This document shows, in pieces, positions 8,744 through 31,307 of a stretch of 34,312 nt of DNA (positions within the stretch are counted from its first letter, which is position 1; every line of letters begins with the position of its first letter). The DNA lies in contig JAPPMR010000785.1 of assembly GCA_028818995.1 (NCBI GenBank), positions 1 through 34,312 on the forward strand. Reading direction: 5' to 3'. The DNA comes from Candidatus Poribacteria bacterium (lineage in GTDB: Bacteria; Poribacteria; WGA-4E; WGA-3G). The translations under genes and the position numbers were made by a program. Under the pieces are notes generated by a model. The model ran no database searches and had not been told where the DNA came from. It saw only the letters and a list, made by a program, of their open reading frames with translations.

Positions 8744-11700
8744 ATGATTTATTTTAAAGACTTAAAAGACGTTATCCAACTTTGCCACAAACGGCATAAA
8801 GCAACATTTCGCCAGCGGAGGTCATCGGTAAGGCCTGTTCTGTATAAAACAATGCCTTATAATGTGAAGGTTTATTGTGCGCGGAGATACCCCGTGATGC
8901 TTGATGATTTGGAATCCGCACACATCTCCTTTATGCCGATAGGGCGGTCTCCAGATAAAGACTACGGTCCACCGGATTTTGGGGGCGATCGATTCCTGAC
9001 AAGGCAAACAACACTCAGTTGGGAACTCAGACAGTGGCGCGCATCGTGGGGAATTCAGGTGTATACCGGCATCCCATCCGAACTTAATGGCGCACGATGG
9101 CACGACCTGCATATCACATATCAAGCAATATGTGATGCCCCGGATGCTGTGATGACCTGTATTGAAACACTTGTCAGTTTCATGGCAAACCCGCTGCTAA
9201 CGCTCACAAAGTCAGCTGGGCTACGTTTTACTTTCAGAGTCCTGGGTTACCTCCACCCAGACACGGCGGATGATAGATCGTACATCTATAAACATACACC
9301 GACACCGGAAAATCCCGGCCACCGAGATGTTTACCTTGAAATTTCTGGGGAAAACGGATACAGCCAGTGGGATTCTCAATACCAGATTCTATTCGGAGAC
9401 CTGTTAGACCCGCCTGTGATTGCCAAAGAGGTCCTTTTTGTTCCTATCAATCACCTCCGCTCGGCACTTCACATGCCAGCACCATTTGGAACGCCGGCAC
9501 CACTGGAAAAAAGAGAAGTAAGAACCGTTCCACGAATGATTCCTGCTGCTGTGCCACAATCTCTCAAATCAGATAATCTTGATCTCGCGAAAGAAGCATT
9601 TTTGAAACGCGGTTTCTCTTATCTGAAACGAGATGGCGATTTCCACCTTTGGATACATCCCAATAGAGACACTTGTGTAAAACTATGGGAAGATCAGGAG
9701 ATTGTATGGATACGAGCAAACACGCCTGATAGCGAACTGCCCACGAAAACCACGCCAATAACAGATATATGGGATGATACCGGTATTACACCGCCAATTT
9801 CAAACGCTGGGCTGCCAATGAAAAAAGAACTTATCTCAATACAAAAGGGTGAACGGAGTCCGTTAGCGATAAGACGTCCCCGTATCGCCCATCGCAAACA
9901 AGAGTCTGCGACAAAAGTTTACAAGACACCGAAAGAAAGAGCTGCGCAGATACGGTGTGCTTTTCAAAGTGACGCAAGGGTTCTGAGCATCACACCAGGG
10001 ACTATTCTCGACACAAATTATGGCGTAGAATTGCACCTTCTCGACGAGGGTTCTACCAGTTTAAACATACCGGACCCAGATTTAGCAGACGAGGCAGCCC
10101 AACGGTATCAGGAATTAGACCCCTCCTCTTTCGCGCGCTGGAGACCGAGGCGATACAACTGGGAGCAGGTAAAAGATATACCTGAAGATGTTCGGATGGC
10201 AAACCCGTTTCAAGGCGGTAATGTTTGTGAGGACCCCGAACGGTGCGACACACTTGCCGAAAAAGGGGGCGATCCACACGTAAGTATCTGTCCACAATGT
10301 CCCGTTTGGACAACGTGTCAGGAACGCGGGTTCTTATCACAATCACTCGCCTTACAATCCGCAAAAGTACAGGTATTGCCGTTCGCCCAACCGTTTCTCA
10401 ATCCACAGCACGCTGATACATTAGGACGAATTATCGAACCGGTAGACGAAACAGAACGTATCCATATCATTGATGAAAACAGTACAGAAGTAGAAAACCT
10501 ATTTATAAACTGCGAACTATCAACACACGTGTTAAAAGAATGGAGCGTGAATTGGGATGGCGATATTTTAGCGAGCTTTGCCAAAGCACTCCTAAATGCT
10601 ATAGAATCCTACGGCGGATCCGATGGAAATCCTATCACACGGATTCGCGCAGCGATGCAGGCGTTTGAACCGCACGAAGAAGCACTCATTCAGCAGATGT
10701 GCCACGTAAATCTGAAATGCAAGATTGTAACACGCGGTATCGTTGATCCGGAAACGGGAGAAGAACTGGCACGTTTTAGTATAGAGTTTGAAGGGGGTGT
10801 TTCTGTTTACATTCCTGTGGACAACGAAGCTGCCCAGAAACTAAAAGCAAAAGAGCTTCCTTTTTTTCAGCCGCGCACCTTTGCCCCTAACGAAACCACG
10901 AAAATCACAATGGAGATGAAGCAAGCCATCGAGTTGGGTATTTTGGACGTGGGAACAGTTGAAAACATTCAGGAATTCCCAACCGTCTGCCAAAATCCGA
11001 ACTGGACATCTTGGCATCAGCTGAAATGTTTCTTTACGCGTTACAAACGGGATGCTGATGCGCCGATGCGGTGTGATAGCCAAAAATTCACATTCTGGGT
11101 ACCGCCGATGCTCCATCCGAGCGTCAAACGCCTTTTGTTAATTTCCCCAACGCTTTCCGAGCAACATCTTCGCAGAACGTTTCCAGACGAAGAAATTGAA
11201 TTCACGCGTCTCGATCTTTCCGCTTGGGTAGCAAGTAACAAGGTCTTTCAGATCCGCACAAAGATCCCTCCACCCCAAACAATTTTAAACTACGAGAATA
11301 ATTGGGACTTGATGAGTCTGTCTAAGGTGGGTCTGTCTAAATTGGGAGAACGTTTTTTTCTCGCCATTCGTAATGAAATTGAAAAGGACCCAAAAACGAC
11401 GCATGCAATCATCACCTATGAAGGAATTCTCAAACATTTATCAGATTTAGCAGAAAAAGAAAATGTCTGCTTCGTTAAACACTTCAAAGACACATTTCGG
11501 CAGGAATCCATCTTTGAAGCACCACAAGTCTTATGGATTGTTGGTTCGCCACACTCGTCACAATTGACTATTTGGCAACGGACACAGATGTTATTTGGAA
11601 ATGACGATAACCCCCTCCACTATGGTCACAAAATAGATCCTCACTACTATAAAGACAAACGGATGCAGGACGTGTATCAACAGAGTGCTGCTGGGCAACT

Positions 11701-12178
11701 CACACAAATTATAGCGCGAGCAGGGCTGGACCGTTGGACTGACAAGACGTTCGTACTGCTCACGAGCCTACCGCTGCCCGGCATTACGGATAGACCCGAA
11801 ACACTCCTTTTTGATTGGATAGACTTTCAGCTCGCTGGCGGGTTAGATAAACTACCTGAAGTGATAGCGACACGTGAACGTTTTGAGACAGAACTCGCAA
11901 ATTTAACACCAGAATCCAAGACGGCAGACGTGATACGTCTCCTGGAATGCTCTCCAAGAACAGCAGGCCGTGTGTTGAATAGGATAAGAGGCGGTAACCG
12001 TATAACTATCCGGGAGCAGATACTCTTTCTACTGGCGACGGGTGAGAAAAAAACATCCTTACTCGTTGAAGCCATTGATAGTAACGCGCAAACAATAGGA
12101 AATGAACTTAGGAAACTTATGGATAAGGGTGAAATTGTCCGGGTGAGCTGGGGGCTGTATAAACTGCCAGACGATTGA
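8744..12178 (+). CDS. Large paralogue 1: putative degenerate Fe-S helicase-like protein
   Basis: This 1144-residue protein is one of three paralogues here and I do not recognise its family with certainty. Residues ~40-240 include WGIQVYTG, WHDLHITY and KSAGLRFTFR, a layout that might be primase-polymerase-like (weak). A Cys cluster starts at residue 495 (NVC ... ERC ... ICPQCPVWTTCQERGFLSQ). It is followed by a DEAH-like IHIIDE (D577), then LLLISPTLS (~796, compare SATL), QIIARAGL (~987, compare QxxGRxGR) and a C-terminal winged helix (~1060-1144). That order matches XPD/DinG helicases. The expected P-loop region, before the Cys cluster, has no GKT/S (SITPGTILDTNY). I chose ATG 8744 over the GTG at 8705 by alignment to the paralogues. 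It has no obvious ribosome binding site. Confidence 0.85.
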   Translation: MIYFKDLKDVIQLCHKRHKATFRQRRSSVRPVLYKTMPYNVKVYCARRYPVMLDDLESAHISFMPIGRSPDKDYGPPDFGGDRFLTRQTTLSWELRQWRASWGIQVYTGIPSELNGARWHDLHITYQAICDAPDAVMTCIETLVSFMANPLLTLTKSAGLRFTFRVLGYLHPDTADDRSYIYKHTPTPENPGHRDVYLEISGENGYSQWDSQYQILFGDLLDPPVIAKEVLFVPINHLRSALHMPAPFGTPAPLEKREVRTVPRMIPAAVPQSLKSDNLDLAKEAFLKRGFSYLKRDGDFHLWIHPNRDTCVKLWEDQEIVWIRANTPDSELPTKTTPITDIWDDTGITPPISNAGLPMKKELISIQKGERSPLAIRRPRIAHRKQESATKVYKTPKERAAQIRCAFQSDARVLSITPGTILDTNYGVELHLLDEGSTSLNIPDPDLADEAAQRYQELDPSSFARWRPRRYNWEQVKDIPEDVRMANPFQGGNVCEDPERCDTLAEKGGDPHVSICPQCPVWTTCQERGFLSQSLALQSAKVQVLPFAQPFLNPQHADTLGRIIEPVDETERIHIIDENSTEVENLFINCELSTHVLKEWSVNWDGDILASFAKALLNAIESYGGSDGNPITRIRAAMQAFEPHEEALIQQMCHVNLKCKIVTRGIVDPETGEELARFSIEFEGGVSVYIPVDNEAAQKLKAKELPFFQPRTFAPNETTKITMEMKQAIELGILDVGTVENIQEFPTVCQNPNWTSWHQLKCFFTRYKRDADAPMRCDSQKFTFWVPPMLHPSVKRLLLISPTLSEQHLRRTFPDEEIEFTRLDLSAWVASNKVFQIRTKIPPPQTILNYENNWDLMSLSKVGLSKLGERFFLAIRNEIEKDPKTTHAIITYEGILKHLSDLAEKENVCFVKHFKDTFRQESIFEAPQVLWIVGSPHSSQLTIWQRTQMLFGNDDNPLHYGHKIDPHYYKDKRMQDVYQQSAAGQLTQIIARAGLDRWTDKTFVLLTSLPLPGITDRPETLLFDWIDFQLAGGLDKLPEVIATRERFETELANLTPESKTADVIRLLECSPRTAGRVLNRIRGGNRITIREQILFLLATGEKKTSLLVEAIDSNAQTIGNELRKLMDKGEIVRVSWGLYKLPDD

Positions 12179-12186
12179 AAATTATA

Positions 12187-12576: not shown

Positions 12577-13731
12577 TCAGGCAGAGCGACAGAGGTGTTG
12601 ATTGTATCTCACACCCAAGGGGAATGCCAGCGTCCCGACTACTGGGTTATTTATCAACCCAGATACTTTGTTGAAAATGTTTATAGCACCGACACCATCT
12701 CTGTGGTATGTGAACTCACATTGTTTGCAGTGATAGTTGCGGTTGTTAGGTTTCTTTCTATGTCCACATTTTGGACAGGTTTGTGAGGTATATGCTTCAG
12801 ATGCAGAAACAACTTTGATACCTTTGAGTTCAGCCTTGTAGCCTATTTTCTGTGCTATTCGTGCGAAAGCCCACTGGTGAAGTTTCTGGTTAGACTTTTT
12901 AGAATACTTGATACTTTCACGGATGCCGTTTAGGTCGCCAATCACAATCGTATCCGCCTTCGCTCTTTGGCAGTCGGATATGAACCTTGAAGTGATTTTG
13001 TGTTCAGCATCCTTGATTTGTGCGTCAAGTTTGTCCAAAGTCCTACGTTTCGCTTCTTGAAGTCTATACCAGCGTTTAGATCGCTTCTTGCATCTATCCA
13101 TCTTAGCAGAGAAGTGCGCTTTTACTTTGTTTCTATACTGCAGGATAGACCGCAACTGGCGTCCGTTATAGATGGTAGTTCTTTTACCATTGAAACTCAC
13201 AATCGGGTGGATTTCACCCATATCCACAGAAACAGTGATACCTGTATCCTGTTTCGGAGGCACATCTACTTTATAGACAAGGGCGAAGTAGTAATGTCCG
13301 CGCTTGAAATACATCTCAACATAGTTCGGTTTTTCTCGCACATTCTCAAGTAGGACAGGCGTGCGTCCTTTGCCATTAGATAATATCAGGTGTCCATCTT
13401 TGATACGGATCGCTCCTGACTTCCAACACACCTTAAAAAACTTTCGTGTCCGCCTGGGTGGTTTCGCTTCGGTGTTAGACTTGCGAACTTCAAAGAAACT
13501 TTTGAGACTATCAAAATAGGCATCCGCACACGCCTGTATGGATTGAGAATGCAACGGATATGCCTTGTGACGCAGATACTTTTGCACCCAACCCTTAGAA
13601 AGCCAAAACCTTTTACGCTGAAAGGTTTTCCGAACAAGAGATACGACTTTAGAGTAGCAACGCCCAGACGCACGCGCAAGATCATCTAATTGAGATGTCC
13701 GTTTCTGTTTTCGTGTCTTGGTGATATACAT
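12577..13731 (-). CDS. tnpB: TnpB RNA-guided nuclease, Gly in place of RuvC-II Glu
   Basis: This is a 384-residue OrfB/TnpB protein of usual length. RuvC-I is SVDMGEIHP (D170). The zinc finger is C319/C322/C335/C338 (CPKCG ... CKQC), and RuvC-III is HRDGVGAINI (D345). At RuvC-II the protein has IVIGDLNGI, with Gly265 where canonical TnpBs have Glu. A Glu lies 47 residues later in SASEAYTSQTC (E312), the layout described for Fanzor proteins and some TnpBs with a rearranged catalytic Glu. Activity is therefore plausible but unproven. A conserved leader hairpin ends 37 nt before the start, with GAGGG as a possible ribosome binding site. TnpB cleaves the empty donor site using an omega RNA from the element's right end. 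Confidence 0.92.
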   Translation of the reverse strand: MYITKTRKQKRTSQLDDLARASGRCYSKVVSLVRKTFQRKRFWLSKGWVQKYLRHKAYPLHSQSIQACADAYFDSLKSFFEVRKSNTEAKPPRRTRKFFKVCWKSGAIRIKDGHLILSNGKGRTPVLLENVREKPNYVEMYFKRGHYYFALVYKVDVPPKQDTGITVSVDMGEIHPIVSFNGKRTTIYNGRQLRSILQYRNKVKAHFSAKMDRCKKRSKRWYRLQEAKRRTLDKLDAQIKDAEHKITSRFISDCQRAKADTIVIGDLNGIRESIKYSKKSNQKLHQWAFARIAQKIGYKAELKGIKVVSASEAYTSQTCPKCGHRKKPNNRNYHCKQCEFTYHRDGVGAINIFNKVSGLINNPVVGTLAFPLGVRYNQHLCRSA

Positions 13732-13768
13732 CGCTCTGCCCTCACATCGTTAGACCACTTTTGAATGG

Positions 13769-13807
13769 TGCGGTGGCACTCTCAAGCGAGAGGCAAAATC
13801 CACCGCA
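13769..13807 (-). promoter_or_regulatory. Conserved leader hairpin of tnpB element 1
   Basis: The outer stem is TGCGGTGG/CCACCGCA and the inner stem is CTCTC/GAGAG around a 4-nt loop. It is nearly identical to the hairpin at 14884-14922 of element 2 and lies at the same 37-nt distance from the start codon. Confidence 0.7.
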
Positions 13808-13820
13808 ACGATGTCTAAAG

Positions 13821-13849
13821 AGCCTATCACATTTCTTGAACAAAATCAA
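13821..13849 (-). promoter_or_regulatory. Promoter of tnpB element 1
   Basis: On the minus strand TTGATT, a 17-nt spacer and TAGGCT lie just upstream of the leader hairpin. The other elements have an equivalent TTGA(C/T)T-17-TAxxxT promoter in the same relative place. Confidence 0.5.
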
Positions 13850-14102
13850 GTTCTTTTGATAAATGGAGGCGTTATCGGTTTTTCATCCGCGTCTTGAAAG
13901 ACGGGGATAAAAAACCGAACGTTTGGTAATAAAAGAAAGAGAAGTCAAGACAAAAGTTGACATGCTCTCCATCCCTAAACAAATATTCAACAACTCAGCA
14001 CAAATTGGGCAGCACTAACAAAATTCTATCATTTATAACTGTTTTGAAATAAAAAACAATTATGAATCATTACAAGGTGGGTGTTGCGCCTTCATTAGAT
14101 TA

Positions 14103-14369
14103 TCAACTATCTGCCGCGTCTTCCTCAAAATGAACATATAGGGCATTAGCAGACAACCTACAGACACATATCCACTTCTCGTGATCCGTTATCGTGCTTT
14201 TAAGCGTCCCTGTCTCACCAATATACAACGGTTCACTGTTTCCATTCTCCGATCTGGCGAAAATGTAAACCGCTGCTGCCTCCGGGAATTCATCCCTCAG
14301 AGAAAAATACTTGAACGGATAATAATAACCAGATACGCCTAAAAAATAGACCTCTTTATTTTTTTTCAT
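14103..14369 (-). pseudogene. Small GIY-YIG domain protein, C-terminus frameshifted
   Basis: This 88-residue frame is a paralogue of 32124-32423. Both have GVSGY(Y/F)YPF, then AVYIF and PLYIG(E/Q)TGTLKSTI, the pattern of a GIY-YIG nuclease core. The intact copy ends HFEKDATVRKQIANDLIEMQ and then CPPCND. Here the frame stops early after HFEEDAADS, while codons for a matching ending (DNLMKAQHPPCND) continue in another frame at about 14055-14097. That indicates a recent indel. A good ribosome binding site (GGTGA) precedes the ATG. If functional, the family would nick or cut DNA, but this copy is probably inactive. Confidence 0.65.
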
Positions 14370-14841
14370 TTTTCACCTACCTATCAAATTTCCCTACCTA
14401 TCAAGTGGGAGACTATAACACATAATGCTTATCCTAAGGGGAGAGGTAGATAAGCAAATATGTATTATAGCCTTGTTAATGGCAGATATTTTATATCGCC
14501 TCTGCCGGGGGCGAGGTGTAAAAGTCTTACGTTATGATTATTTTCGTATTGACATTTTGCGTGTGGCGGTAATTAATGTTATTTTAGTTATAATAGGACA
14601 TTATATATTATTATCCAATAAATAGTGTATAAAGCCTATTTCAAACCCTAATAATACAGTATTTTTAAGTAAAATACAAGCAGAAATTGCGAATTTACTT
14701 GAAAATCGTTTAATACTTAGCCAATTTCTTGTGAGAAAAGTCCTCTTTTCAAATACCGTGCTTATCTACCTTCGGTGTCAAGACCCCGCTGCTTTAGCAC
14801 GGGGATGTAGACACCGCTAATATATTTCTTTATCATAAGTA

Positions 14842-14870
14842 TTGACTTTTTCGTGTATTTGTGGTATCTA
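14842..14870 (+). promoter_or_regulatory. Promoter of tnpB element 2
   Basis: TTGACT, a 17-nt spacer and TATCTA form a good sigma-70-like promoter 14 nt upstream of the leader hairpin. Confidence 0.6.
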
Positions 14871-14883
14871 TTCATATCATCGT

Positions 14884-14922
14884 TGCGGTGGATTCTACCT
14901 CTCGCTTGAGAGTGCCACCGCA
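14884..14922 (+). promoter_or_regulatory. Conserved leader hairpin of tnpB element 2
   Basis: The outer stem is TGCGGTGG/CCACCGCA and the inner stem is CTCTC/GAGAG with loop gctt. It lies 37 nt before the ATG. The same structure, inverted in the window, precedes tnpB of element 1. Confidence 0.7.
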
Positions 14923-14959
14923 CCATTTAGAAGTGGTGTCATGATGATAAGGAAATACG

Positions 14960-15532
14960 ATGAGAACCTACAAATACAAGCTACAACATCATAAAAGAAA
15001 TTGCTATTTGCAAAGGGACTTGTTCACTATTGCACATGTCCACAATCACTTTGTTGCGTTGTGGCAACGTCACTATAAGATATATGGACACTGTGAAGGT
15101 TACAAGCGACCGAGTGCGTATCGGATGATCAAACATTTGACAAAACTGAAGCGACTTGCTAAATACCGACATTGGACTATTCCATATTCTTGGTGTTTGC
15201 AAGAGTGCATACAACGCATTGATAGGGGTTGGCAAAACTTCTTTGAAGGCAGAGCGAAGCGTCCGCCCAAATTTAGAAGTCGGCATAAATACAAATCCAT
15301 GACCTTTGCTGGTAGTCAAGTGAAAATAGAGCCTATTGAGAAAGAAAAAGTCTGTCACGCCTGCGGACAAATCCAAATGTTCTTTGATTTGAGTATTCGC
15401 GATTGGTATTGCCATACCTGTAAAATCAATCATGACCGTGATATAAACGCAGCAATCAATATTCATAAGGTAGGGGCATCTACCTTTGGAGAAGAGGATG
15501 TTAGACTTGCTTCGGCAAGCAATCCTTGTTGA
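14960..15532 (+). CDS. Internally deleted TnpB (mini-TnpB)
   Basis: This is an in-frame 190-residue derivative of TnpB. Residues 1-120 match a TnpB N-terminal region (MRTYKYKLQHHKRN ... RAKRPPKFRSRHKYKSM). The chain then passes, near KIEPIEKEKV, directly into the zinc finger (CHACG ... CHTC) and RuvC-III (NHDRDINAAINI). RuvC-I Asp and the RuvC-II Glu region are absent, so it cannot be a RuvC nuclease. The missing part is roughly 200 residues. The frame and ribosome binding site (AAGGA, ~6 nt from ATG) are intact. It could be a simple deletion relic. It could also be a DNA- or omega-RNA-binding derivative, by analogy with nuclease-dead TnpB-derived repressors, though those usually keep near full length. 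Confidence 0.8.
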   Translation: MRTYKYKLQHHKRNCYLQRDLFTIAHVHNHFVALWQRHYKIYGHCEGYKRPSAYRMIKHLTKLKRLAKYRHWTIPYSWCLQECIQRIDRGWQNFFEGRAKRPPKFRSRHKYKSMTFAGSQVKIEPIEKEKVCHACGQIQMFFDLSIRDWYCHTCKINHDRDINAAINIHKVGASTFGEEDVRLASASNPC

Positions 15533-15761
15533 TACCACAATCTACCCTGTGGCATGGGGACTAAGAATCCCCCTGCTTTAGCGGGGGAGTATGTCAATTC
15601 AACATTTGACTTAAAACCAGATTTTTGATAATATTCACTACTAACCTAAATGAAACTGATAACAAACTACTTACTATAGTTATCGCTCTTCAGTGTCAAG
15701 ACCCCGTTGCTTTAGCACGGGGATGTAGACACTGCTAAAGACTTTTTCTATGAAAACAAAC

Positions 15762-15790
15762 TTGACTTTGTGAGCAAAATGTAGTATATT
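15762..15790 (+). promoter_or_regulatory. Promoter of tnpB element 3
   Basis: TTGACT, a 17-nt spacer and TATATT; equivalent in position to the promoters of the other tnpB elements. Confidence 0.6.
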
Positions 15791-15876
15791 GATTAGACCA
15801 GTTCAGTGGTAGGTTTTTGACGAGCCTACCACACCACGTCAAATGGGAACTGGATTCTTCTGAGAACTGGCATACC

Positions 15877-17130: not shown

Positions 17131-20100
17131 ATGACAACCGATGTCCTACAAGATATTATTTCACGTTGCCATCAACGGCACGAGAAGCCACTTAAGCAAC
17201 GGAAAACGGTATTAGCACCTCCGATTTACAAAGGGTATCCTTACCATTTCAAAGTCTATTGTGCACACAGATATCCTGTGATGCTTCAAGACTTAGAGAC
17301 GGCAGGCATTTCTTTTATGCCGATAGGGCAGGCTCCTGGAACCGACTGTCCCCCGCGTCAGTTTGGAGGGGAGCGGTTCTTGAAACGCCAACAGGCGGCA
17401 GACTGGGATGCCGTTCGATGGTACAAATCGTGGGGGATCCAAGTATATACGGGTATGCCTTCGGCGCGCGATGGTGCGCCATGGCATGACATAGATTTTA
17501 AATATGAGGCTATCTGTGCTGCACCTGATGCAGTTCTCGCTTGCGTTCAAGCACTTGTTAACAGCGTTGTGAACCCATTATTGACAATGTCAAAGTCTGG
17601 TGGGCTGCGCTTCTCTTGCAGGATACCGGAGTACCTACACCCGAACACCGAGCAGGCACGGTTGTATGTCCAGGAACAGACCCAAACAGTAGAGAATCCG
17701 AACCTACATGAAGCATATATTGAGATTTTGGGTGAGAAGGGATACAATCGCTGGGATGCACGCTATGAGATTCTGCTCGGAAATCTGTTAGATCCACCTA
17801 TAATTTCTAAAGAGGTTTTCTTTGCACCTATCGATGCACTTCGCGCTACTACGCTTCACAAACCTGTTCTCCAAAGCGTACAATACGAGGAGGATATCCC
17901 AGCCGCACCATACTTTCTCGAATCAGGTAAACTTGAACTTGCCAAAGAAGCATTCCTTAAGCACGGTTTTTCTTATGTGAGACAGGAGGATGGATTTCAT
18001 TACTGGCGCCGACGAGATGATGGAATTGGTAGCGCAGAAGTATCATTATGGGAGAGTGAAAGTGGCGTGTGGATACGTGCTTCCACGTCTGATGCCGGAC
18101 TACCCACAGAGGCAACACTCATAACAGATGTTTGGAACGATACCGGCATTCTGCCGCCGCTCCCTGCAACGGGGCTGCCTTTAGATGATAAAGTGCTTGC
18201 CGTGCAAGAAGGAAAACTCAGTCCACTGGCAATAAGACGTCCTAAGCCGATATTACGCAAGCCCGAACCTACCGAAAAGACTGATGAAACACACGAAGAG
18301 ATGGGTGTTCAGGGGCAGCGTGCTTTTGAGAGGAACGCGCGCGTTCTTGGGTTTATCCGCGGGACAGCCTCAGAGAAAGACCCTGAAGTAGAATCCCTTC
18401 TACGGAATAGCGAAGTCATCTATTTAAACGTGCCAAGTGGTAAACCCGCAGCATCAGCAGAACAATTTCTTCAAAAGCGAAATGTGGAATCGGCTGCATG
18501 GTGGCGGGATAGGATGTATCTATGGGATCAGGTGAAAGATATCCCCGTTGACGAGCGGATGGCAACTCCCTTTCAACGTGGAAATGTCTGCGAGGATGCT
18601 GAGCGGTGCGAGGCACTTGAGGAAAAAGGTGGGAATCCGAACGAAATTATCTGTCCACAGTGCCGCGTTTACACAGCATGTCAGGAACGTGGCTATTTAT
18701 CGCAATCCTCTACATTAGAAACTACGAAAGCAAAAATAATAGAAAAATATAGACTGTTTATGGATCCAGCATACACAAAAATAGCGGATCAACTTCTTGA
18801 AGCGCGCGATGGAACACAGTCACTCTGTATCAATAATATCAGGAGAGCGAATCAATTGTTTCCCAGATGCAAACTATCTAAAACGACATTGGAGGAATGG
18901 ATTATCAACTGGCAAGGCAGTGCCTTAGGAAACTTTGCGATGGCTTTGCTGAATGCGGTAGAAATCAGAGACAGATACCATGCCGACGCTATCAAACGTC
19001 TTCGAACAGTGATGCAGGTGTTTGAATGGTTGGAAGAAGAACTCATCCAACAGATGTGCCACGTTAATGTACGGGGCAAGGTGGTTGCACGAGAGGCAAT
19101 TGATGCAGAGACTGGAGAAAAATTAGCACATTGGACAATAGAATTTGAGCGGGGGATCTCTGCTTATATTCCTTTGGACGCTGCGGCTGCGGACAGGCTG
19201 GCGGCACAAGAGCTGCCTTTTTTCCAGCCCCCCACTTTTGTTCCTAACGAAGACATGAGATTTCCGATGTCAATAGCGGATGCTGTCAGGTTGGGTATCT
19301 TGGATGTGGCGACTGTTGAAAACATTCAGGAGTTCCCAACGGTTTGTCAGGATCCACATTGGACGTTTTGGCATCAACTCAAATGTTTCTTTGCACATTA
19401 CACGAGGGACGCTGATGCGCCGATGCAATGGGAGGACGAAGAACTGCGGTTCTCGATACCGCCGGTCCTTGATCCGCGCGTCAGGCTCCTTTTGGTCACT
19501 GCCCCAGTTCTCTACGGCAAACATCTACGTCGTGCATTTTTCGATGAGGAAGTTGAGGTCCTTCCGCCCCAATCGATGGCGTGGGCTCCCGGAAATCGCG
19601 TTTTTCAGATTCGCACCGGTATCTATCCATGGAAGACAATTTTAGACATTAGCAACACCTGGGACAGTCTCGGGGTGTCTGAAACAGGGCAGCACATTTT
19701 TTGGCGGATCCAAGCCGAAATTGAAAGAGACCCCAATATTAAGCACGGGATTATAGCCGATGTTCATGCAATTGAACAGTTGGAGGATATCGCGAAAAAT
19801 GAGAATGTCTGTTTCTTGACGAGTTTTGATGTAGTGGAAGGATTGGAGACCGCTTTTCAAGCGGCGCAAGTCTTATGGATAGTTGGCATACCAAGAGTGG
19901 GCCCCCGTTCCCTTTTAGAGCGCACGCGAATCCTATTTGGAAACGACGAAGAACCTCTTTCTTATGAAATGGAACTTGAGCTCTACCGTTACAAAGACGA
20001 ACGCGTCCAAAGCGTTTATGAAGTGGAGGTCTTCCGTATTTTCAGAGAGATTATAGAGTTAGCTCAGCTGAACCGTTTGGCAAACAAGAAAATTATGTTG

Positions 20101-20523
20101 ATTACAAGTTTGCAAGTTCCTGAAATAACAGACAGACCTGAAACTCTCTTTTTCGACTGGGCAGATTTTGATGTCGCCGGCGAGTTAGATAAACTGCCCG
20201 AAGTGATAGCGACACGTGAACGTTTTGAGTCAGAACGCGACAATCTGACACCAGAATCCAGCAGAAAAGAGGTAGAAGATGTTCTGGGATGTTCCTCAAG
20301 GCAGGCAAACCGAGTGTTGCAAAAGCTGAGAGGGGGGAAGACACGTGTTACTTTCCGCGCTCAAATTCTCACACTTCTCGCTGACGGAGAAAGAAAAACA
20401 CCGGAAATCGTGGAAGCAATTAAAGGACATCCAAAAGCAATAAATACAAAACTCACGCGTCTTGTAGACGCCGGTGAAATTGTAAAGATTAAACGAGGTT
20501 TGTATACACTGCCAGAGGCATAA
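17131..20523 (+). CDS. Large paralogue 2: putative degenerate Fe-S helicase-like protein
   Basis: This 1130-residue protein aligns end to end with those at 8744-12178 and 28083-31307. It keeps the N-terminal WGIQVYTG, WHDIDFKY and SKSGGLRFSCR segments and the Cys cluster from residue ~487 (NVCEDAERC ... IICPQCRVYTACQERGYLSQ). The C-terminal winged helix is also kept (VLGCSSRQANRVLQKLRGG ... LVDAGEIVKIKRGLYTLP). It is the most degenerate at the ATPase-like positions: the IIDE segment has become SLCINNIRR, and the QxxGRxGR-like segment is EIIELAQLNR. The P-loop region reads FIRGTASEKD, without GKT/S. The start has a weak upstream CAGGG. Element 3 ends 13 bp upstream, so the native promoter has probably been displaced. 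Function unknown; an enzymatically inactive nucleic-acid-binding role is one reading. Confidence 0.85.
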   Translation: MTTDVLQDIISRCHQRHEKPLKQRKTVLAPPIYKGYPYHFKVYCAHRYPVMLQDLETAGISFMPIGQAPGTDCPPRQFGGERFLKRQQAADWDAVRWYKSWGIQVYTGMPSARDGAPWHDIDFKYEAICAAPDAVLACVQALVNSVVNPLLTMSKSGGLRFSCRIPEYLHPNTEQARLYVQEQTQTVENPNLHEAYIEILGEKGYNRWDARYEILLGNLLDPPIISKEVFFAPIDALRATTLHKPVLQSVQYEEDIPAAPYFLESGKLELAKEAFLKHGFSYVRQEDGFHYWRRRDDGIGSAEVSLWESESGVWIRASTSDAGLPTEATLITDVWNDTGILPPLPATGLPLDDKVLAVQEGKLSPLAIRRPKPILRKPEPTEKTDETHEEMGVQGQRAFERNARVLGFIRGTASEKDPEVESLLRNSEVIYLNVPSGKPAASAEQFLQKRNVESAAWWRDRMYLWDQVKDIPVDERMATPFQRGNVCEDAERCEALEEKGGNPNEIICPQCRVYTACQERGYLSQSSTLETTKAKIIEKYRLFMDPAYTKIADQLLEARDGTQSLCINNIRRANQLFPRCKLSKTTLEEWIINWQGSALGNFAMALLNAVEIRDRYHADAIKRLRTVMQVFEWLEEELIQQMCHVNVRGKVVAREAIDAETGEKLAHWTIEFERGISAYIPLDAAAADRLAAQELPFFQPPTFVPNEDMRFPMSIADAVRLGILDVATVENIQEFPTVCQDPHWTFWHQLKCFFAHYTRDADAPMQWEDEELRFSIPPVLDPRVRLLLVTAPVLYGKHLRRAFFDEEVEVLPPQSMAWAPGNRVFQIRTGIYPWKTILDISNTWDSLGVSETGQHIFWRIQAEIERDPNIKHGIIADVHAIEQLEDIAKNENVCFLTSFDVVEGLETAFQAAQVLWIVGIPRVGPRSLLERTRILFGNDEEPLSYEMELELYRYKDERVQSVYEVEVFRIFREIIELAQLNRLANKKIMLITSLQVPEITDRPETLFFDWADFDVAGELDKLPEVIATRERFESERDNLTPESSRKEVEDVLGCSSRQANRVLQKLRGGKTRVTFRAQILTLLADGERKTPEIVEAIKGHPKAINTKLTRLVDAGEIVKIKRGLYTLPEA

Positions 20524-21353: not shown

Positions 21354-21535
21354 TTCTATCTCCTTATTCATTTTAGACTTTGACAGGGCGCTCTAATGAA
21401 CGCCACTATATTATTTACAATAGACATTATAACATATTAGTTACGATAAGTCGTGTTAATTTATAATTCACATAAAACGTAAATTGTCTATACACAACCG
21501 TAGACTATACGGTATTTTCTGAGATAAACAGCACT

Positions 21536-21600: not shown

Positions 21601-21602
21601 AT

Positions 21603-21975: not shown

Positions 21976-22045
21976 ATGTGTATCTTAACTCTCACCGATA
22001 GCGTTATATAAACTTTTTTATCATACATAAGAAAGGACTTTGAGA

Positions 22046-23520: not shown

Positions 23521-23842
23521 TTGACAATCTTTTTACAGAATTATGCAAATTTGTGTAAATTTAAGTTGATTTAAAAGTGGAGTTAATAGTAAAATGAAAT
23601 TGTCAGGAGAGTTAAATAGATTATGTTTAAAAGCCGAAAAGACCCAAGGCTTTTAAACACAAACACCTCGGGTCCACCCTACAAAAGTAGTATTCGGCGC
23701 GATTTTTTGGCGACCAGCTCGAAAAATCGTTTACCTGCTAATAAGCAGGATGATAAGAGTATAACACATCATAAAATAAAAAACAAGTTTTTTATTATTT
23801 TTTATGAAAAAATACTCTTATTGCCTCAAAATAAGGTGTTTT
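23521..23842 (+). promoter_or_regulatory. Leader region of the Rep-like gene 2
   Basis: The 580-bp gap 23267-23842 has no convincing gene. It holds a possible TTGACA (23521-23526) with a poor -10. A TAAAAGCC/GGCTTTTA hairpin lies at ~23627-23655, a CGATTTTT/AAAAATCG hairpin at ~23699-23728, and an A/T-rich inverted repeat at ~23780-23800. An 80-codon frame at 23623-23865 has AGGAGAG 12 nt upstream but no recognisable similarity. It overlaps the start of the next gene, so I treat it as a possible leader peptide only. Confidence 0.35.
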
Positions 23843-24868
23843 ATGACTGTAAAAACGTTAAATAATGTAGATTTGGCTCAACCTAATCCGATATCTTCAG
23901 GCGTATACCCCGACATCTACGAAAACTGCCCAAATGATGAGCCGGTCGAGCCATCTCGTCCGTCCATCTTCGTAGAAACACAGGAAGATACGATGCAAGT
24001 TCCTTTTGGAACATTTAGTATGTTAGACGCTTTAATGGAAGGCACAGAAAAAGCGTTCGATACGGCGATCTATCAATGCTACAACGCGTTTTCTAATTGG
24101 GATTTAGGTTTATCTCATTCACTTTCAACCCGCCACGTTGGTAAGTTGTTTACGGTATCTCACCAATATGTGCAGCAAGCACTTTCGCGTTTGACTAACA
24201 AGAAATGGATGAAGCGTCTTTCCGGTAAATATAAGATCAGCAAGTTTGAGCTTAAGCATCATCTCTGTAATCACGAAGATATTCCGCATGATAAAGACGG
24301 TAGACCCACTAAGTGTGCGATGCCGCGTGGCTTTGGTGGTTTATTCGAGCGTATGATGTCTGGTGATGTTAGTTGGAAGTCGTTAATAATATGGATGCTG
24401 CTGAAGATTAATTCAGATTTTACGACAGGTATTACGGAACCTGTGGGCATAAAACAACTTTGTGAATGGACGCGGTTCGGCACAACGACGGTATCCGATT
24501 GTATTAAAGAACTTGAGTCTGCAGGTATGTTAGGGAAGTTGGAACGTCGCCCGCAAGAAGCACAGTCGTATCAATTGTATCCCAAGCCTTATGCCGAGCG
24601 TAGAGAGCGCACACCAGAGGCGGAGCGGACGTGGCGTGATATGCGTGTTGAAGGTAACTGGCGGTACAGTTTTAACGAGGAATGGCGTGTCAATGTTAAG
24701 ACTGCGGATATTCAGTATAGCCCGGACAAGAAGAAACCTTTTCGGAATGCATCTGACTACGAAAAGTTTCAGGTGATGCCCAAGAGTATAAGGAGGGATT
24801 TTGATTTAGCGGTTCGTATCCATTCGGATATGGCAGCCGCTCTCAATAAAAGTCCGTGTCCCACCTAA
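23843..24868 (+). CDS. Double-winged-helix Rep-like protein 2
   Basis: This 341-residue protein is a paralogue of 6681-7493. The first helix-turn-helix-like unit (~65-130) includes AIYQCYNAFSNW, TRHVGKLFTVSHQYVQQALS and RLSGKYKISKFEL. The second (~175-250) includes SLIIWMLLKINSDF, GIKQLCEWTRFGTTTVSDCI and KELESAGMLGKLE, ending YQLYPK. Two winged helices next to 21-bp direct repeats fit an iteron-binding initiator of the RepA/Rep_3 kind. The low similarity means the family is inferred, not proven. ATG 23843 is preceded by AAGGTG; the frame extends 13 codons further but with no ribosome binding site. A weak AGCCTA/TAGGCT hairpin follows the stop. The recombinase upstream and the beta-CASP and par genes downstream make it part of a plasmid-like block. 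Confidence 0.6.
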   Translation: MTVKTLNNVDLAQPNPISSGVYPDIYENCPNDEPVEPSRPSIFVETQEDTMQVPFGTFSMLDALMEGTEKAFDTAIYQCYNAFSNWDLGLSHSLSTRHVGKLFTVSHQYVQQALSRLTNKKWMKRLSGKYKISKFELKHHLCNHEDIPHDKDGRPTKCAMPRGFGGLFERMMSGDVSWKSLIIWMLLKINSDFTTGITEPVGIKQLCEWTRFGTTTVSDCIKELESAGMLGKLERRPQEAQSYQLYPKPYAERRERTPEAERTWRDMRVEGNWRYSFNEEWRVNVKTADIQYSPDKKKPFRNASDYEKFQVMPKSIRRDFDLAVRIHSDMAAALNKSPCPT

Positions 24869-26951: not shown

Positions 26952-27239
26952 TTACCCATTTTTCGCAATTGGGGGTTTGCCTTTTTGCTCAAATAGAGCA
27001 TTGAGAGCATCACCTAAAACATCTTGAAGGTTCTTGTCTTCCTCAGCTGCGATAACACGCAATTGACGATGCACCTCCGGCGCAAAATAACCTGAGATGT
27101 TCTTTTTACCAATACGCGATGCTGCAATTTTCTGATTAGCAGGTGCAGATTCGACGGTTTCAGGTGTGTCCGTTTCCTGCTGCTGTTCTTCGTTTTCTTT
27201 GAATACTTGTGCGAGATTCACTTTTTTATCTTTTGACAT
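26952..27239 (-). CDS. Ribbon-helix-helix ParA partner protein
   Basis: This 95-residue protein has a flexible, Glu/Gln-rich N-terminus (~1-40). A C-terminal ribbon-helix-helix-like segment follows (ISGYFAPEVHRQLRVIAAEE, then DKNLQDVLGDALNALFE). Small RHH proteins downstream of parA act as centromere-binding partners and autoregulators (ParG- or Omega-like). A strong AGGAGG precedes the ATG, which begins 9 nt past the parA stop, so the two genes form an operon. It could instead be an antitoxin-type RHH, but no toxin gene is adjacent. Confidence 0.75.
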   Translation of the reverse strand: MSKDKKVNLAQVFKENEEQQQETDTPETVESAPANQKIAASRIGKKNISGYFAPEVHRQLRVIAAEEDKNLQDVLGDALNALFEQKGKPPIAKNG

Positions 27240-27248
27240 ACTAACCTC

Positions 27249-27869
27249 CTATACGTCCAATTCGCTTGCCAAATATGTGTAGAATGCTTTTACCTCATCT
27301 GATGCTTTACCACTGGGTTCAAATTCCTGTACTGTGAGCCCCGCGTTGTAAGCGTGTACAAAAGCGATACGGTGTCCGAACCCACATGGCGCACACGGCA
27401 CGTTGTAGATACTAACTGCTTCTTCGGCTTGTTTCGTTAGGTCGCCGCGAGAAGGAATGCTGTTGAAAACGATACGAGCCGGCACTTTTGCCAGACGGAC
27501 GACATCTATTGTTGAACCAATTGCCTGTAAATCTATGAGTGCGGGTTTACACGGGATCACTGCCATGTCTGCAGCACGTGCTGCATCTAATGCGGATGCC
27601 TCAGTATGTGGGGCTGTGTCCAAAATGGCGAGTGTCGCACCATTCTCCGCTGCAAGTTGCAATATCTTTGGTAATCGTTCAGAGTGTGTAGAGATCACCG
27701 CTGGGGTGTCCTCTTTACGATTATCTCCCCATTTTGCAGCACTGGTTTGCGGGTCGAGATCAATCAGTGCTGTTGTATGTCCAGCGTTTTCCGCTGCGAT
27801 AGCAAGATTCGTCGCGATAGTAGTTTTTCCCGTCCCACCTTTGCGAGATAAGATAGCAACTGTTTTCAT
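27249..27869 (-). CDS. parA: ParA-family partition ATPase
   Basis: This 206-residue protein has a deviant Walker A motif KGGTGKTT (10-17), the A' motif LIDLDPQ (D37, D39) and a Walker B segment LAILDTAP (~81-88). The length and lack of an N-terminal helix-turn-helix fit the small type Ib ParA class, which pairs with an RHH partner such as the gene just downstream. ParA ATPases position plasmids by nucleoid-bound gradients. GGAGGG precedes the ATG. Two TTACATGTAA palindromes lie 48-82 bp upstream and may be the operator or centromere bound by the RHH protein. Confidence 0.93.
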   Translation of the reverse strand: MKTVAILSRKGGTGKTTIATNLAIAAENAGHTTALIDLDPQTSAAKWGDNRKEDTPAVISTHSERLPKILQLAAENGATLAILDTAPHTEASALDAARAADMAVIPCKPALIDLQAIGSTIDVVRLAKVPARIVFNSIPSRGDLTKQAEEAVSIYNVPCAPCGFGHRIAFVHAYNAGLTVQEFEPSGKASDEVKAFYTYLASELDV

Positions 27870-27916
27870 TCGTCCCTCCAGTTCACAGGTAAGATACGCT
27901 TATTTGTAGGACAAAG

Positions 27917-27951: not shown

Positions 27952-28033
27952 ACATTGCTTCCATGAAAAGTCCGACAGTCAAGGCAACAATTGCTAACAC
28001 ATATATGGATGTTATGATTCTTTTTTTCTTCAT
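27917..28033 (-). CDS. Small 38-residue membrane peptide
   Basis: The frame starts at ATG 28033 after a strong AAAGGAG with 6-nt spacing and encodes MKKKRIITSI followed by a hydrophobic stretch (YVLAIVALTVGLF). A single membrane segment with a basic N-terminus is predicted by eye. It lies between parA and paralogue 3, reading away from paralogue 3's 3' end. I recognise no family. The good start site is the main support. Confidence 0.45.
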   Translation of the reverse strand: MKKKRIITSIYVLAIVALTVGLFMEAMFTCKFTLQNYM

Positions 28034-28082
28034 GCCAATCTCCTTTATCAATATCTGCTGCAAATTGGGGATATAGTAGCGG

Positions 28083-31000
28083 CTACGGAAGTGCGTAGAC
28101 ACCCCGCCGCACCCTGATAATCTTACCTTCATCTAAAAGCCGCTTCAGCTCATTTCCGATCGCCTGAGGGCTGGCATCAATCGCTGAGACGAGTGATGAT
28201 GTTGTTTTCTCACGGCTGGAGGAGAGAAGAAAAAGGATCTGCTCTCGAAAAGTAACGCGAGGAATGTTGCCGCCCCGCAGCTTCTGCAACATACGGTTTG
28301 CTTGCCTTGAGGAGCATCCTAAAATACGTTCTACTTCTTCTCTACTGGATTCGGCTGTTAGGTTTTCACTCTCCGTCTCAAAACGTTCGCGTGTGCGTAT
28401 TGTTTCCTCAAGTTTATGTAACCCACCAGCGATTTCAAAGTCTTCCCAATCAAAAAGAGATGTTTCCGGTCTATCAGTAATGTTGGGTATTTCGAAGTTG
28501 TTGAGCAGCATCACCGTCTTACCGCTACTGCTGTTTAGTCCTGCCCATCCGACAATCTGTGTGAGTATCCCCACCACGTTTTGATCATAAACCTTTTGTA
28601 TCCGTTCGTCTTTATAGTTGTCATTCCATACATCTGCTTCGTAATTAAGCGGTTTTTCGTCATTTCCAAACAGCATTTGTGCATGGTGCCAAATTGCGTG
28701 TTGATGCCAATATGGTGTGCCGACAATCCATAAGACCTTTGCTGTTTCAATGTTTTTCTCTATCTTGGGTAACGCTTTAAAATTCGCTACGAAACAGACG
28801 TTCTGCATTGCTGCCAGGTCCGCCAATTTATTCTTAATTGAACCATTTGTGACAATTGCGTGTTTTATGCTTGGGTCCCTGTTAATTTCTGCATGGATAC
28901 CTAAAAAATAACGTTCGCCTAATTTAGACAATTCCCCAATGCGTGAGTTGTTATTGTAGTTTAGATATGGACGTAGCGAGTTGTTACTCGTGCGGAGCTG
29001 AAAGACCTTGTTACCCGACACCCATGCTGTCGGTTCAATACGAATGACATCCATTTCCTCATCCGGGAACGCCCTGTGAAGCTGCGGATCAGAAAGGAAT
29101 GTTGATATTAACAAAAGACGTTTGACATTTGGATGCAGCTTAGGCGGCATCCAAAACGTCAAAAATTCATCGTTTAACCGCATAGGCGCATCAACATTTC
29201 GCGGGTAATGCGCAAAGAAACGCTGCAACTGATGCCAATACGTCCAATCCGGATTCGGACAGACGGTGGGTAATAATTCTATTTTTTCTAAGGTTTCTGT
29301 GTTGTCGATAGCGTAACGTGCTAATTCCGTTTTTGTTTTGGTGTCCACAATTCTATGTGCCACAATTTTGCCTTGTACATTAATGTAACACATTTGCTGA
29401 ATAATCTCATCTGCGTGTTGTTGGAACGCTTCCACCACAGCACGAATCTGACCAATAGGATTATTATAAGGTTTGCGTTGCGTTTCAAGGGCGTTCATTA
29501 GTGCCACGGCAAAGTTGCCCAAAGCGCTTCCTTGCCAGTTGACGCTCCATTCCTCTATGACTTTTTTTGGAATCAGACATTCAAAAAATAGGTTTTCTAT
29601 TTCTGTTTTACGTTCATCAATGATACAGATACGTTCCGGTTCATTTGTGGATCCCAATATTTGTTGGACCAAGTGTGTGTGTCGTGGATCCAGAAACAGT
29701 TTCCCGACTGGTGTTATCTGTGCGTTTGCGCGTTGTAATGTGAGCGGTTGTGAAAGATAGCCTCGTTCTTGGCATGCAGTATAAACGGGACACTGTAGAC
29801 AGATAATCTTTCTCGGATTTCCACCTTTTTCCTGAACAGCACGAAATCGCTCAGGGTCCTCACACACATTACCATGTTGAAAAGGGTTTGCCATGCGGAT
29901 ATCCATCGGTATATCTTTTACCTGATCCCACCGGTATATTATTGACCGCCAACGTGCAACAGAAGTTAGTTTTTTTGATCGGTATCGTTCTTCTGTTGCA
30001 TCTGCTATTCTTCGACTGGGTATATTTAAGCAGGTGGGGCAATTGTGCAAAAGGTGCGTTTCTGTTTGGGTGTTCGTCAATATGCCTACTTCGGAAGTGG
30101 TGATTGCAAGAATCCGTGTCCCGCGCTTCAAGATATCTTGTAGCTGCGCTGAATGTTCTTTTGCTGTTTTATATACCTTTGGTGTTGTCTGCTGTTTGTG
30201 AAGTTTCGGCGGGGAACGTTTTATTGCCAACGGACTTAGAGTGCCATCCCGAATGGCGTTAACTTTTTCATTCACTGGCAATCCAGCATCAAGTGTTGGT
30301 GCCGAAATGCCTGTGTCGTTCCATATATCTGTTATCGGCACGGCTCTTGTAGGTAACTCGGTATTTGGTGTAGCCGCGCGAACCCATACAATGTTTTTGT
30401 CTTCCCACAGCGACGCGTCCACATCCTTATGCGTCCAGTAGTGAAAACCGTTTGCTTCTTGGTCATAAGTAAAACCGCGTTTCAAAAATGCTTTTTTCGC
30501 GAGATCAAGATTATCTGATCCGAGAGATGGTAAAATAACATTTTCAGTTTTTGTAACGTCTTTTGGTAACTTTTCTTGAGATGATTCAGATTCGTGAAGT
30601 GTAGCACGGAGGTTATTGATAGGTGCAAAAAGTACCTCTTTGATAATGACAGGCGGATCTAACAGGTTACCGAACAGAATCTCATACCGCATATCCCAGC
30701 GGCTGTACCCTTTGTCCCCATGTATTTTTAGGTAGATGTCACGGTGGGCTGTGGGTGTCTGCTTATAGATGAAAAATTTCGCTTCATCGGTGTTTGGATG
30801 CAGGTAATTCTGGATTCGGCAAGAGAACCGCAGTCCACCGGATTTTGTGACCGTCAACAATGGGGTTGCGGTTATGTTTAGGAGTGCTTCAATACACGTA
30901 GCAACTGCTTCCGGGGCAGCACAGATCGCTTGATATGTAAATTCGAGGTCGTGCCATTGCGCATCATCTCGTTCGGAGGGGACACCGGTATATATCTGTA

Positions 31001-31307
31001 TTCCCCATGAGGCGTGCCACTGTTTCAATCGCCAGTTTTGAGCAGTTTGCCGTTTCAAGAACCTGTCCCCGCCAAGATCGCGTGGGCCTTGGTCGTTTTC
31101 AGGTGCGTGTCCTATCGGCATAAAGGAGATTTCTGCATTTTCAAGTGCATCCAGTGTCATCGGATTGCTGCGCACACAATGCACCTTGATATGATAGGGA
31201 AAACTTTTATACAACGCAGGTGTAATCACTGTTTTGCGTTGGCGAAGTATGTCTTTTTCTGCATACCGTTTGTGACAACGTTCAAAAACATCTTCTAAAA
31301 CGTTCAT
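28083..31307 (-). CDS. Large paralogue 3: putative degenerate Fe-S helicase-like protein
   Basis: This 1074-residue protein is the third copy of the family. It keeps WGIQIYTG, WHDLEFTY and TKSGGLRFSCR. The Cys cluster lies near residue 482 (NVC ... IICLQCPVYTACQERGYLSQ), where the second Cys of the other copies is Phe (ERF), leaving four Cys. IIDE is kept (RICIIDER, ~562), as are LLLISTFLS, QIVGWAGL and the C-terminal winged helix (ILGCSSRQANRMLQKLRGG). About 50 residues are missing between ELARYAI and LLPTVCPNP relative to the others. The P-loop region (AITTSEVGIL) lacks GKT/S. I start at ATG 31307, which aligns with paralogue 2. The longer frame to 31442 translates a REP-like repeat (GRDSEIAP), so it is spurious. 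Confidence 0.85.
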   Translation of the reverse strand: MNVLEDVFERCHKRYAEKDILRQRKTVITPALYKSFPYHIKVHCVRSNPMTLDALENAEISFMPIGHAPENDQGPRDLGGDRFLKRQTAQNWRLKQWHASWGIQIYTGVPSERDDAQWHDLEFTYQAICAAPEAVATCIEALLNITATPLLTVTKSGGLRFSCRIQNYLHPNTDEAKFFIYKQTPTAHRDIYLKIHGDKGYSRWDMRYEILFGNLLDPPVIIKEVLFAPINNLRATLHESESSQEKLPKDVTKTENVILPSLGSDNLDLAKKAFLKRGFTYDQEANGFHYWTHKDVDASLWEDKNIVWVRAATPNTELPTRAVPITDIWNDTGISAPTLDAGLPVNEKVNAIRDGTLSPLAIKRSPPKLHKQQTTPKVYKTAKEHSAQLQDILKRGTRILAITTSEVGILTNTQTETHLLHNCPTCLNIPSRRIADATEERYRSKKLTSVARWRSIIYRWDQVKDIPMDIRMANPFQHGNVCEDPERFRAVQEKGGNPRKIICLQCPVYTACQERGYLSQPLTLQRANAQITPVGKLFLDPRHTHLVQQILGSTNEPERICIIDERKTEIENLFFECLIPKKVIEEWSVNWQGSALGNFAVALMNALETQRKPYNNPIGQIRAVVEAFQQHADEIIQQMCYINVQGKIVAHRIVDTKTKTELARYAIDNTETLEKIELLPTVCPNPDWTYWHQLQRFFAHYPRNVDAPMRLNDEFLTFWMPPKLHPNVKRLLLISTFLSDPQLHRAFPDEEMDVIRIEPTAWVSGNKVFQLRTSNNSLRPYLNYNNNSRIGELSKLGERYFLGIHAEINRDPSIKHAIVTNGSIKNKLADLAAMQNVCFVANFKALPKIEKNIETAKVLWIVGTPYWHQHAIWHHAQMLFGNDEKPLNYEADVWNDNYKDERIQKVYDQNVVGILTQIVGWAGLNSSSGKTVMLLNNFEIPNITDRPETSLFDWEDFEIAGGLHKLEETIRTRERFETESENLTAESSREEVERILGCSSRQANRMLQKLRGGNIPRVTFREQILFLLSSSREKTTSSLVSAIDASPQAIGNELKRLLDEGKIIRVRRGVYALP

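Follow-up and report, generated by a model that had tools for sequence, protein, structure and literature searches.

Most copies of a multicopy Poribacteria protein family, very probably of DinG/XPD-type helicase descent, lack the P-loop

The window analyzed here is the whole 34,312-nucleotide (nt) stretch of contig JAPPMR010000785.1 (positions 1 to 34,312; assembly GCA_028818995.1) from a Candidatus Poribacteria bacterium. It carries three related genes, referred to as copies A, B, and C, whose open reading frames (ORFs) at 8705-12178 (+), 17131-20523 (+), and 28083-31442 (-) are all intact. The conserved start of copy A lies near 8744 and that of copy C at 31307, the ORFs being open further upstream (8705 and 31442, respectively). 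Counted from these starts, copy A (8744..12178, +) encodes 1144 amino acids (aa) and copy C (28083..31307, -) 1074 aa, while copy B (17131..20523, +) encodes 1130 aa. The proteins are collinear from end to end, with identities of 50% (A-B), 54% (A-C), and 49% (B-C). Hence the genes at 8744, 17131, and 28083-31307 form a trio of full-length paralogues, as had been claimed from the letters of this DNA by an earlier annotation, referred to below as the sequence-only reading.

Each protein is divided into an N-terminal domain, a linker, a decayed RecA1 segment, a Cys segment, a DE-box segment, an arch, a RecA2 segment, and a C-terminal winged helix-turn-helix (wHTH). In copy A (+), these parts lie at 8753-9517, 9518-9904, 9905-10183, 10184-10342, 10343-10558, 10559-10993, 10994-11863, and 11864-12169, respectively. 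The corresponding parts of copy B (+) lie at 17137-17886, 17887-18267, 18268-18546, 18547-18705, 18706-18915, 18916-19350, 19351-20205, and 20206-20514, and those of copy C (-) at 30567-31307, 30189-30566, 29907-30188, 29748-29906, 29532-29747, 29256-29531, 28401-29255, and 28086-28400. The arch of copy C is shortened, by 68 codons (204 nt) with respect to its counterpart in the nearest genome compared (G001).

The sequence-only reading had found no recognizable P-loop in any of the three, and the Walker A pattern [AG]x4GK[ST] indeed matches none of the three window proteins. The equivalent octets, in each of which the P-loop is lost, read PGTILDTN in copy A (9995..10018, +), RGTASEKD in copy B (18358..18381, +), and SEVGILTN in copy C (30072..30095, -). 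The DE box is retained in copy A (IHIIDE, 10460..10477, +) and copy C (ICIIDE, 29613..29630, -) and lost in copy B, where 18823..18840 (+) reads LCINNI; IIDE had been assigned to two of the three, and so it is. The Cys cluster, also assigned to each protein, has the same spacing, C-x20-C-x2-C-x5-C, in all three (C508/C529/C532/C538 in copy A, C487/C508/C511/C517 in copy B, and C527/C548/C551/C557 in copy C), and an extra Cys within the x20 stretch is missing from copy C. Two further motifs had been read as helicase-like, and both stand as described in copy A only: LLLISPTLS becomes LLLISTFLS in copy C and LLLVTAPVLY in copy B, and QIIARAGL becomes QIVGWAGL and EIIELAQL, respectively. The winged helix claimed for all three is above the Pfam cut-off in copy C (AbiEi_4, 28.5 bits; cut-off 25), just under it in copy B (23.5 bits), and weak in copy A, whose C-terminus matches the ArsR-type HTH_5 alone (E 0.055). 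Curated families cover only this C-terminal HTH of the window proteins: searches of copies A-C against Pfam, PADLOC, and PHROGs gave nothing meaningful beyond it, and NCBIfam had no meaningful match to copy B and seven relatives. When A1 and A3 were compared directly with PDB sequences, HTH proteins and chance-level matches were returned; one of the latter was F-box DNA helicase 1, matched in the P-loop region (E 0.55).

Relatives that bear a P-loop connect these proteins to helicases. G001 encodes a 1048-aa relative (P0123/L014, L014:3333-6479) that shares the N-terminal ~250 aa at 35-40% and has, in order, TPAQTGKTT, four Cys, and AIDEP. The relatives form a continuum, with 95 homologues of L014 and 483 proteins in a profile search (best 120 inspected). 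Within the narrow family of ~1130 aa, the Walker A place is occupied by AEKGGGKS or AETGAGKT in some copies and by GKN in others, and is unrecognizable in the rest; copy B is 53% identical to the P-loop-bearing P0167. Homologues with GKT/S at the aligned position, proposed earlier as a check, thus exist (P0123/L014, P0164, P0167, P0193, and others). The motif order in the P-loop-bearing relatives is Walker A, C-x20-C-x2-C-x5-C, and a D-E/D-D box. In their profile aligned with DinG/YoaA, this is the predicted order of Walker A, iron-sulfur (Fe-S)-type Cys cluster, and DE box, an arrangement shared with DinG and YoaA, which are XPD/Rad3 Fe-S helicases of superfamily 2 (SF2). The P0164/P0228 branch is also like DinG/YoaA in having SAT (FMSATL) and Q-x2-G-R-x-R (as Q-A-x-G-R-A-R), in place of which the P0123 branch has NASD and Q-A-I-L-R-L-R. 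P0228 scores 25.3 bits against Pfam DEAD, under the cut-off of 26, and DEAD is matched at E<=1 by three of the 31 relatives scanned. Different from DinG/YoaA, the family has a conserved N-terminal domain and a C-terminal wHTH fused on, is multicopy, spaces its Cys as C-x20-C-x2-C-x5-C, and lacks Walker A in most copies read.

We then compared profiles with hhalign. The query was built from 31 relatives with GK[STN], two of which (P0167 and P0193) belong to the narrow family, and the DinG profile from 17 proteins (E. coli DinG and YoaA, seven DinG-like proteins of a plasmid collection, and eight Poribacteria DinG). The two match with Prob 97.4 and E 9.2e-12 over 184 columns, spanning Walker A, the aligned CPxYxxC cluster, and the DE box. 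The control profiles of UvrD (Prob 6.6, 45 columns), DEAD-box (66, 47 columns), and other SF2 helicases (3.1, 63 columns) all match at the P-loop end, and Prim-Pol (0.3), BT4734-like (0.35), and reversed (0.25) profiles score lower; no control alignment of the P-loop-bearing profiles spans the Cys cluster. Smaller query profiles gave Prob 92.9, 83.8 (without a narrow-family member), and 96.1 against the 17-member DinG set. Against a Poribacteria-only DinG profile the values were 61.8 and 7.0, the latter from a profile that scored higher with UvrD (18.7) and DEAD-box (30.3). The P-loop-less helicase region in turn matches the P-loop-bearing one along 560 columns (Prob 100, E 4e-190); the P-loop-bearing profile has 13 rows, six of them narrow-family members. 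The two P-loop-bearing profiles match each other with Prob 100 and E 8e-50. Descent from a DinG/XPD-type helicase, since decayed, is thus very probable on these alignments.

The states of the motor motifs were tabulated in 69 rows, 46 from loci and the window and 23 from database matches. Among the 37 copies of at least 700 aa in five single-contig genomes, which were taken as closed, Walker A is GK[ST] in six, GKN in four, substituted in 21, and deleted with its segment in six. The DE box is kept in 9 of the 10 GK[STN] copies (including all four GKN copies) vs 2 of the 21 substituted ones. All four Cys are present in 56/56 rows that retain the Cys segment. A quick tree was built for 68 rows from the N-terminal and RecA2 columns and drew long-branch warnings; it requires a minimum of six changes for strict GK[ST] or eight for GK[STN], six for presence of the Cys segment, and one for deletion of the P-loop, counts that give no direction. 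Judged from these sequences, the decay of Walker A is graded, with several state changes on the tree.

Selection was estimated as the ratio of nonsynonymous to synonymous substitution rates (dN/dS, omega) by the NG86 method for pairs with dS<1.2; the pairs are non-independent and the ratios carry no significance test. The pooled omega is 0.27 for 50 pairs in which both copies have lost the P-loop. By segment it is 0.24 in the N-terminus, 0.47 in RecA1, 0.14 in the Cys segment, 0.45 in the DE-box segment, 0.26 in RecA2, and 0.20 in the wHTH. For six K+/K+ pairs, omega is 0.21 overall, with 0.28 in RecA1, 0.12 in the Cys segment, and 0.31 in the DE box. Single pairs with the G001 counterpart gave 0.24 for copy C and 0.30 for copy B. 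By these ratios the P-loop-less copies, most of which have intact frames, are still under purifying selection, and the Cys segment is the most constrained part; the segment values indicate that the motor segments are relaxed and the remainder is kept. The multiplicity of the genes had been taken to suggest that they are selected or mobile: the copies are under purifying selection, and mobility is only suggested by the observations on dispersal given below.

The N-terminal domain had been called possibly primase-like. The Prim-Pol profile was the sole one tried that gave an in-register alignment along the entire domain (GIQ-YTG, D-x-D, SGG-x-R, LEI-x-G), and the match is weak (hhalign Prob 1.5-5.7, E 0.007-0.034); a BT4734-like fold of the archaeo-eukaryotic primases (AEP) was tried for the N-terminus and gave no match (Prob 0.2-0.5). 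The His of motif II (s-x-H) is Arg in 68/69 rows and a gap in the remaining row. Motif I (D-h-D/E) is intact in copies B and C and D-x-H in copy A, and motif III (h-D/E) is intact in copies A and B and has K in copy C. P0140, which is 69% identical to P0123 over 70% of the latter, has an N-terminal PF08800 BT4734-like domain (E 3e-9). PF08800 also precedes the same kind of helicase half in P0158 and, by database annotation, in P0247 and P0260; the BT4734-like proteins are listed as an AEP family in PMC5862659. As described in that paper, mobile elements encode AEP-type primase-helicases for replication (Prim-Pol, PrimQH, and BT4734-like) that likewise combine a primase-like domain, a helicase, and a winged helix. 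Further likenesses are PF08800 as the N-terminal domain in some members and a Cys/His knuckle in distant family members (by eye). The window family differs in that its N-terminus has no significant match to either AEP profile tried and in the change of the motif II His to Arg, and neither 'DinG' nor 'XPD' occurs in the main text of PMC5862659 on AEP primase-helicases. The suggestion of a primase-like N-terminus hence survives as a lead only: AEP primase ancestry is likely, albeit unproven, and catalysis by the domain is doubtful.

A search with copy B (P0002) scored 7994 candidates and yielded 1370 homologues at E<=1e-3, a number which implies that the shared features exceed chance; among the best 120, all homologues with a named organism are Poribacteria. 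The family was found in 48 of 84 Poribacteria genomes, all from two genera (g1 and g21) of one family, with up to 12 copies per genome. The wider profile A3 gave 34 loci among genome contigs, all in Poribacteria; viral contigs searched with A3 and A2 and plasmid and phage collections searched with P0123 (not with copies A-C) contained no relative. The 37 copies in the single-contig genomes are distributed as 12 in G080, 10 in G084, nine in G083, five in G082, and one in G046. Many are solitary, and some are arranged in tandem, two to four together (L047, L058, L068, and L075). G001 and these five genomes together have 42 intact narrow-family copies (>=700 aa) vs four broken or fragmentary loci (L017, L067, L077, and a 91-aa remnant at G080:1437143). 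Internal stops occur in at least 12 family places among those listed over all genomes. Eighteen short forms (773-1047 aa) are single open frames, and both the N-terminal ~250 aa and RecA2-wHTH are retained in the parts that match. No description of this Poribacteria family was found in the available parts of the literature searched. It is a large family, found here solely in sponge-dwelling bacteria such as the host of the window.

Relatives at different genomic sites share DNA likeness over the ORF and little beyond. L052 and L071 are 94% identical over a stretch that begins one base upstream of the start codon and ends 14 bases past the stop, plus a 247-bp repeat, and the identity is even (90-98% per 200 bases). 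A repeat of ~130 bp at L052 7699-7834 recurs at >15 places in G080 (90-97%) and also in G082 (76-84%). Identity likewise extends little beyond the ORF in L050/L054, L066/L063 (separate bits of 90-290 bp), and L013/L075; L055/L059 and L049/L069 also share 200-370 bp upstream. The 5' flank of L071 (G084) is present in five other genomes, each match starting at about the 5' end of the gene. In G080 and G083 the site is uninterrupted and has no family gene; in G081 it contains ~9.6 kb of other DNA (L229 1205-10837). It may be an insertion hot spot; a clean insertion is not demonstrable there, the far flank being non-orthologous. L057 (G083, a 783-aa short form) and L064 (G084, a 1131-aa GKS form) occupy the same chromosomal site and are not sisters on the tree. 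Transfer of gene-sized units and ectopic gene conversion are both possible, and conversion between paralogues may be why identity stops at the ORF ends. A shared transposon-like end was sought in the 1.5-kb flanks of 46 copies and rejected: among the 45 longest of 124 upstream and the 45 longest of 74 downstream pairwise flank matches, which are mostly synteny, tandem copies, and scattered repeats, nothing is common to the family.

The window itself is probably a circular plasmid of ~34 kb, one of a related pair of ~34-37 kb. The window and the 36.6-kb contig C20 of G001 both carry counterparts of A, B, and C together with ParA, ribbon-helix-helix (RHH), HTH, and beta-CASP genes, and one gene order is a circular permutation of the other. 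Window 4864-7761 spans the end-start junction of C20, and C20 5541-5840 spans that of the window; the window has no exact terminal overlap. On C20 the counterpart of copy A is 82% identical in protein and that of copy C 96-98% in DNA, and the longest contig with a 90% relative of copy B is 37.9 kb. Hairpin arrays like GGTAGGTTCGGTTTGTAACCGAACC at 175-537 and 33710-34110 flank the presumed circle junction. An RHH antitoxin-like protein (26952-27239, -) and a ParA-type ATPase (27249-27869, -) form a partition-like pair (26952..27869), which accompanies family genes in the window and in C20 and C33 of G001. A 354-aa HTH protein (23804..24868, +) is weakly like phage helicase loaders and replication initiators (PHROG E 3e-4), and a 333-aa HTH protein (6681..7682, -) matches a DnaD-like helicase loader (PHROG E 6e-7). 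The gene of the former is part of a recurring HTH-betaCASP-RHH-ParA block, which also stands beside a family gene at L015. Elsewhere in the window are TnpB (OrfB_IS605) genes, some whole and some broken, in the interval from copy A to copy B (12577-16984), a 408-aa fusion of a GIY-YIG nuclease domain and a tyrosine recombinase (22040-23266), and a cluster c1 gene (20589-21371; Laminin_G_3 by Pfam). A c1 gene adjoins or lies near a family gene in 9/38 stretches compared (L013, L047, L048, L051, L058, L065, and L068 included), in varying orientation, which may be chance. The P-loop-bearing relative L014/L078 has as neighbors a Dam methylase, a repressor, and an integrase, which is a tyrosine integrase in the integrative-element-like setting of L078 9001-20939. 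The coverage of the L078 contig is 136, vs 66-68 for two other contigs of the bin. At L081 412-12090, a P-loop-bearing relative adjoins NACHT and SIR2-like proteins, a defence-like pair.

These observations point to an ancestor that would have been a multidomain replication-type protein, with an N-terminal domain (possibly an AEP primase), a DinG/XPD SF2 core with Cys cluster, and a winged helix. In its P-loop-less descendants, ATP hydrolysis would be uncoupled from unwinding, and DNA would be bound via the N-terminal domain, the Fe-S wedge, RecA2, and the winged helix. Retention of these four parts despite loss of the ATP site suggests that the proteins bind DNA but do not unwind it, and we favor, with moderate confidence, a non-catalytic DNA-binding role of the P-loop-less copies. 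XPD inside TFIIH retains its ATP site, whereas the P-loop-less genes have lost it. XPD there is a precedent for an Fe-S SF2 helicase in a non-catalytic role, as its helicase activity is reportedly dispensable for transcription (PMC4182028). The sequence-only reading had offered an inactive helicase relic: the helicase origin is supported through the P-loop-bearing relatives, and 'relic' has to be qualified, the copies being under purifying selection. The putative role, more speculatively, would be that of a non-catalytic initiator or loader platform, or of a brake competing with P-loop-bearing copies, acting on origins or forks of related plasmids or integrative elements. Control of element replication is a tentative guess, preferred because of the plasmid setting and of the neighbors of L014/L078.

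Several points weigh against this interpretation. The P-loop-less profile alone matches DinG with only Prob 2.3, so that the link to DinG runs through the relatives; the match is confined to RecA1 and the cluster, RecA2 contributing short motifs only, which the P0123 branch does not share. Some copies can dispense with the Cys segment, as it is deleted in 13/69 rows. Copies A and C keep the DE box despite loss of the P-loop. Conversely, the DE-box Glu is lost in five of six narrow-family GK[ST] database matches (P0167, P0169, P0173, P0177, and P0193), so a P-loop need not mean activity and some P-loop-bearing copies may be inactive. Constraint is weaker on copy A than on the other two, with omega 0.65 overall and 1.3 in RecA1, around Walker A. 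The ParA/RHH/HTH block occurs at 3/38 stretches and the other chromosomal neighbors are unannotated, which leaves a replicon role unsupported at chromosomal sites.

The main rival is that the P-loop-less copies are non-catalytic subunits to which a P-loop-bearing paralogue supplies the ATPase, as in other mixed motor complexes. GK[ST] copies, one or more per genome, occur together with lost ones in four of the five single-contig genomes, three of the six such copies (L047:14657, L058:8128, and L068:4262) belong to same-strand tandem groups that also include lost or GKN copies, and the GKN copies of these genomes keep the DE box (4/4). However, G046 has no GK[ST] among its intact family members, G001 has it among intact copies only in the distant relative L014, the GK[ST] copy of G082 is without the Cys segment, and many lost copies are solitary; we regard a subunit role as unlikely. 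The copies could also be active primases that shed the helicase and rely on a host helicase for unwinding. The well-conserved N-terminal domain in register with Prim-Pol and the AEP-type PF08800 ahead of the same helicase half in other members speak for this, but the non-significant Prim-Pol match and the altered motifs I, II, and III make it improbable.

Unselected, decaying copies of a mobile primase-helicase would explain the graded Walker A decay, the repeated deletions, the four broken or fragmentary loci in six genomes, the internal stops, and the high omega of copy A. Such neutral relics are nonetheless quite improbable: intact copies outnumber broken ones 42 to four in the same six genomes, the pooled omega of the lost copies is close to that of the K+ pairs, the 18 short forms remain single open frames, and close counterparts of A and C persist on the related element C20. 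AbiEi-type antitoxins of a type IV toxin-antitoxin system were considered because AbiEi_4 is above its cut-off in copy C and P0023 bears the AbiEi name by automatic annotation. The C-terminal wing of copies B and C is indeed like the AbiEi wHTH (PF13338), but the match covers ~26 residues, the last few per cent of an 1100-aa protein, and no AbiEii-like nucleotidyltransferase toxin partner was seen among the 15 other window ORFs scanned. This reading was rejected as a match to the wing only, and its probability is close to negligible.

Returning to a non-catalytic DNA-binding role, a more elaborate and decidedly unlikely proposal is that the copies are ATPase-dead Fe-S 'pseudohelicases', multiplied on chromosomes as single-gene immunity or copy-number control. 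Bound to the origins or forks of related plasmids and integrative elements, they would obstruct the active primase-helicase, and window-type elements would carry their own P-loop-less copies in response. Irrespective of this, the presence of up to a dozen copies per genome in one sponge-symbiont family makes a role at the level of the cell likely. The family shows the loss of a helicase motor through many intermediates, with the Fe-S segment under the strongest constraint, and it opens to direct test the question of what the Fe-S wedge does without ATP hydrolysis.

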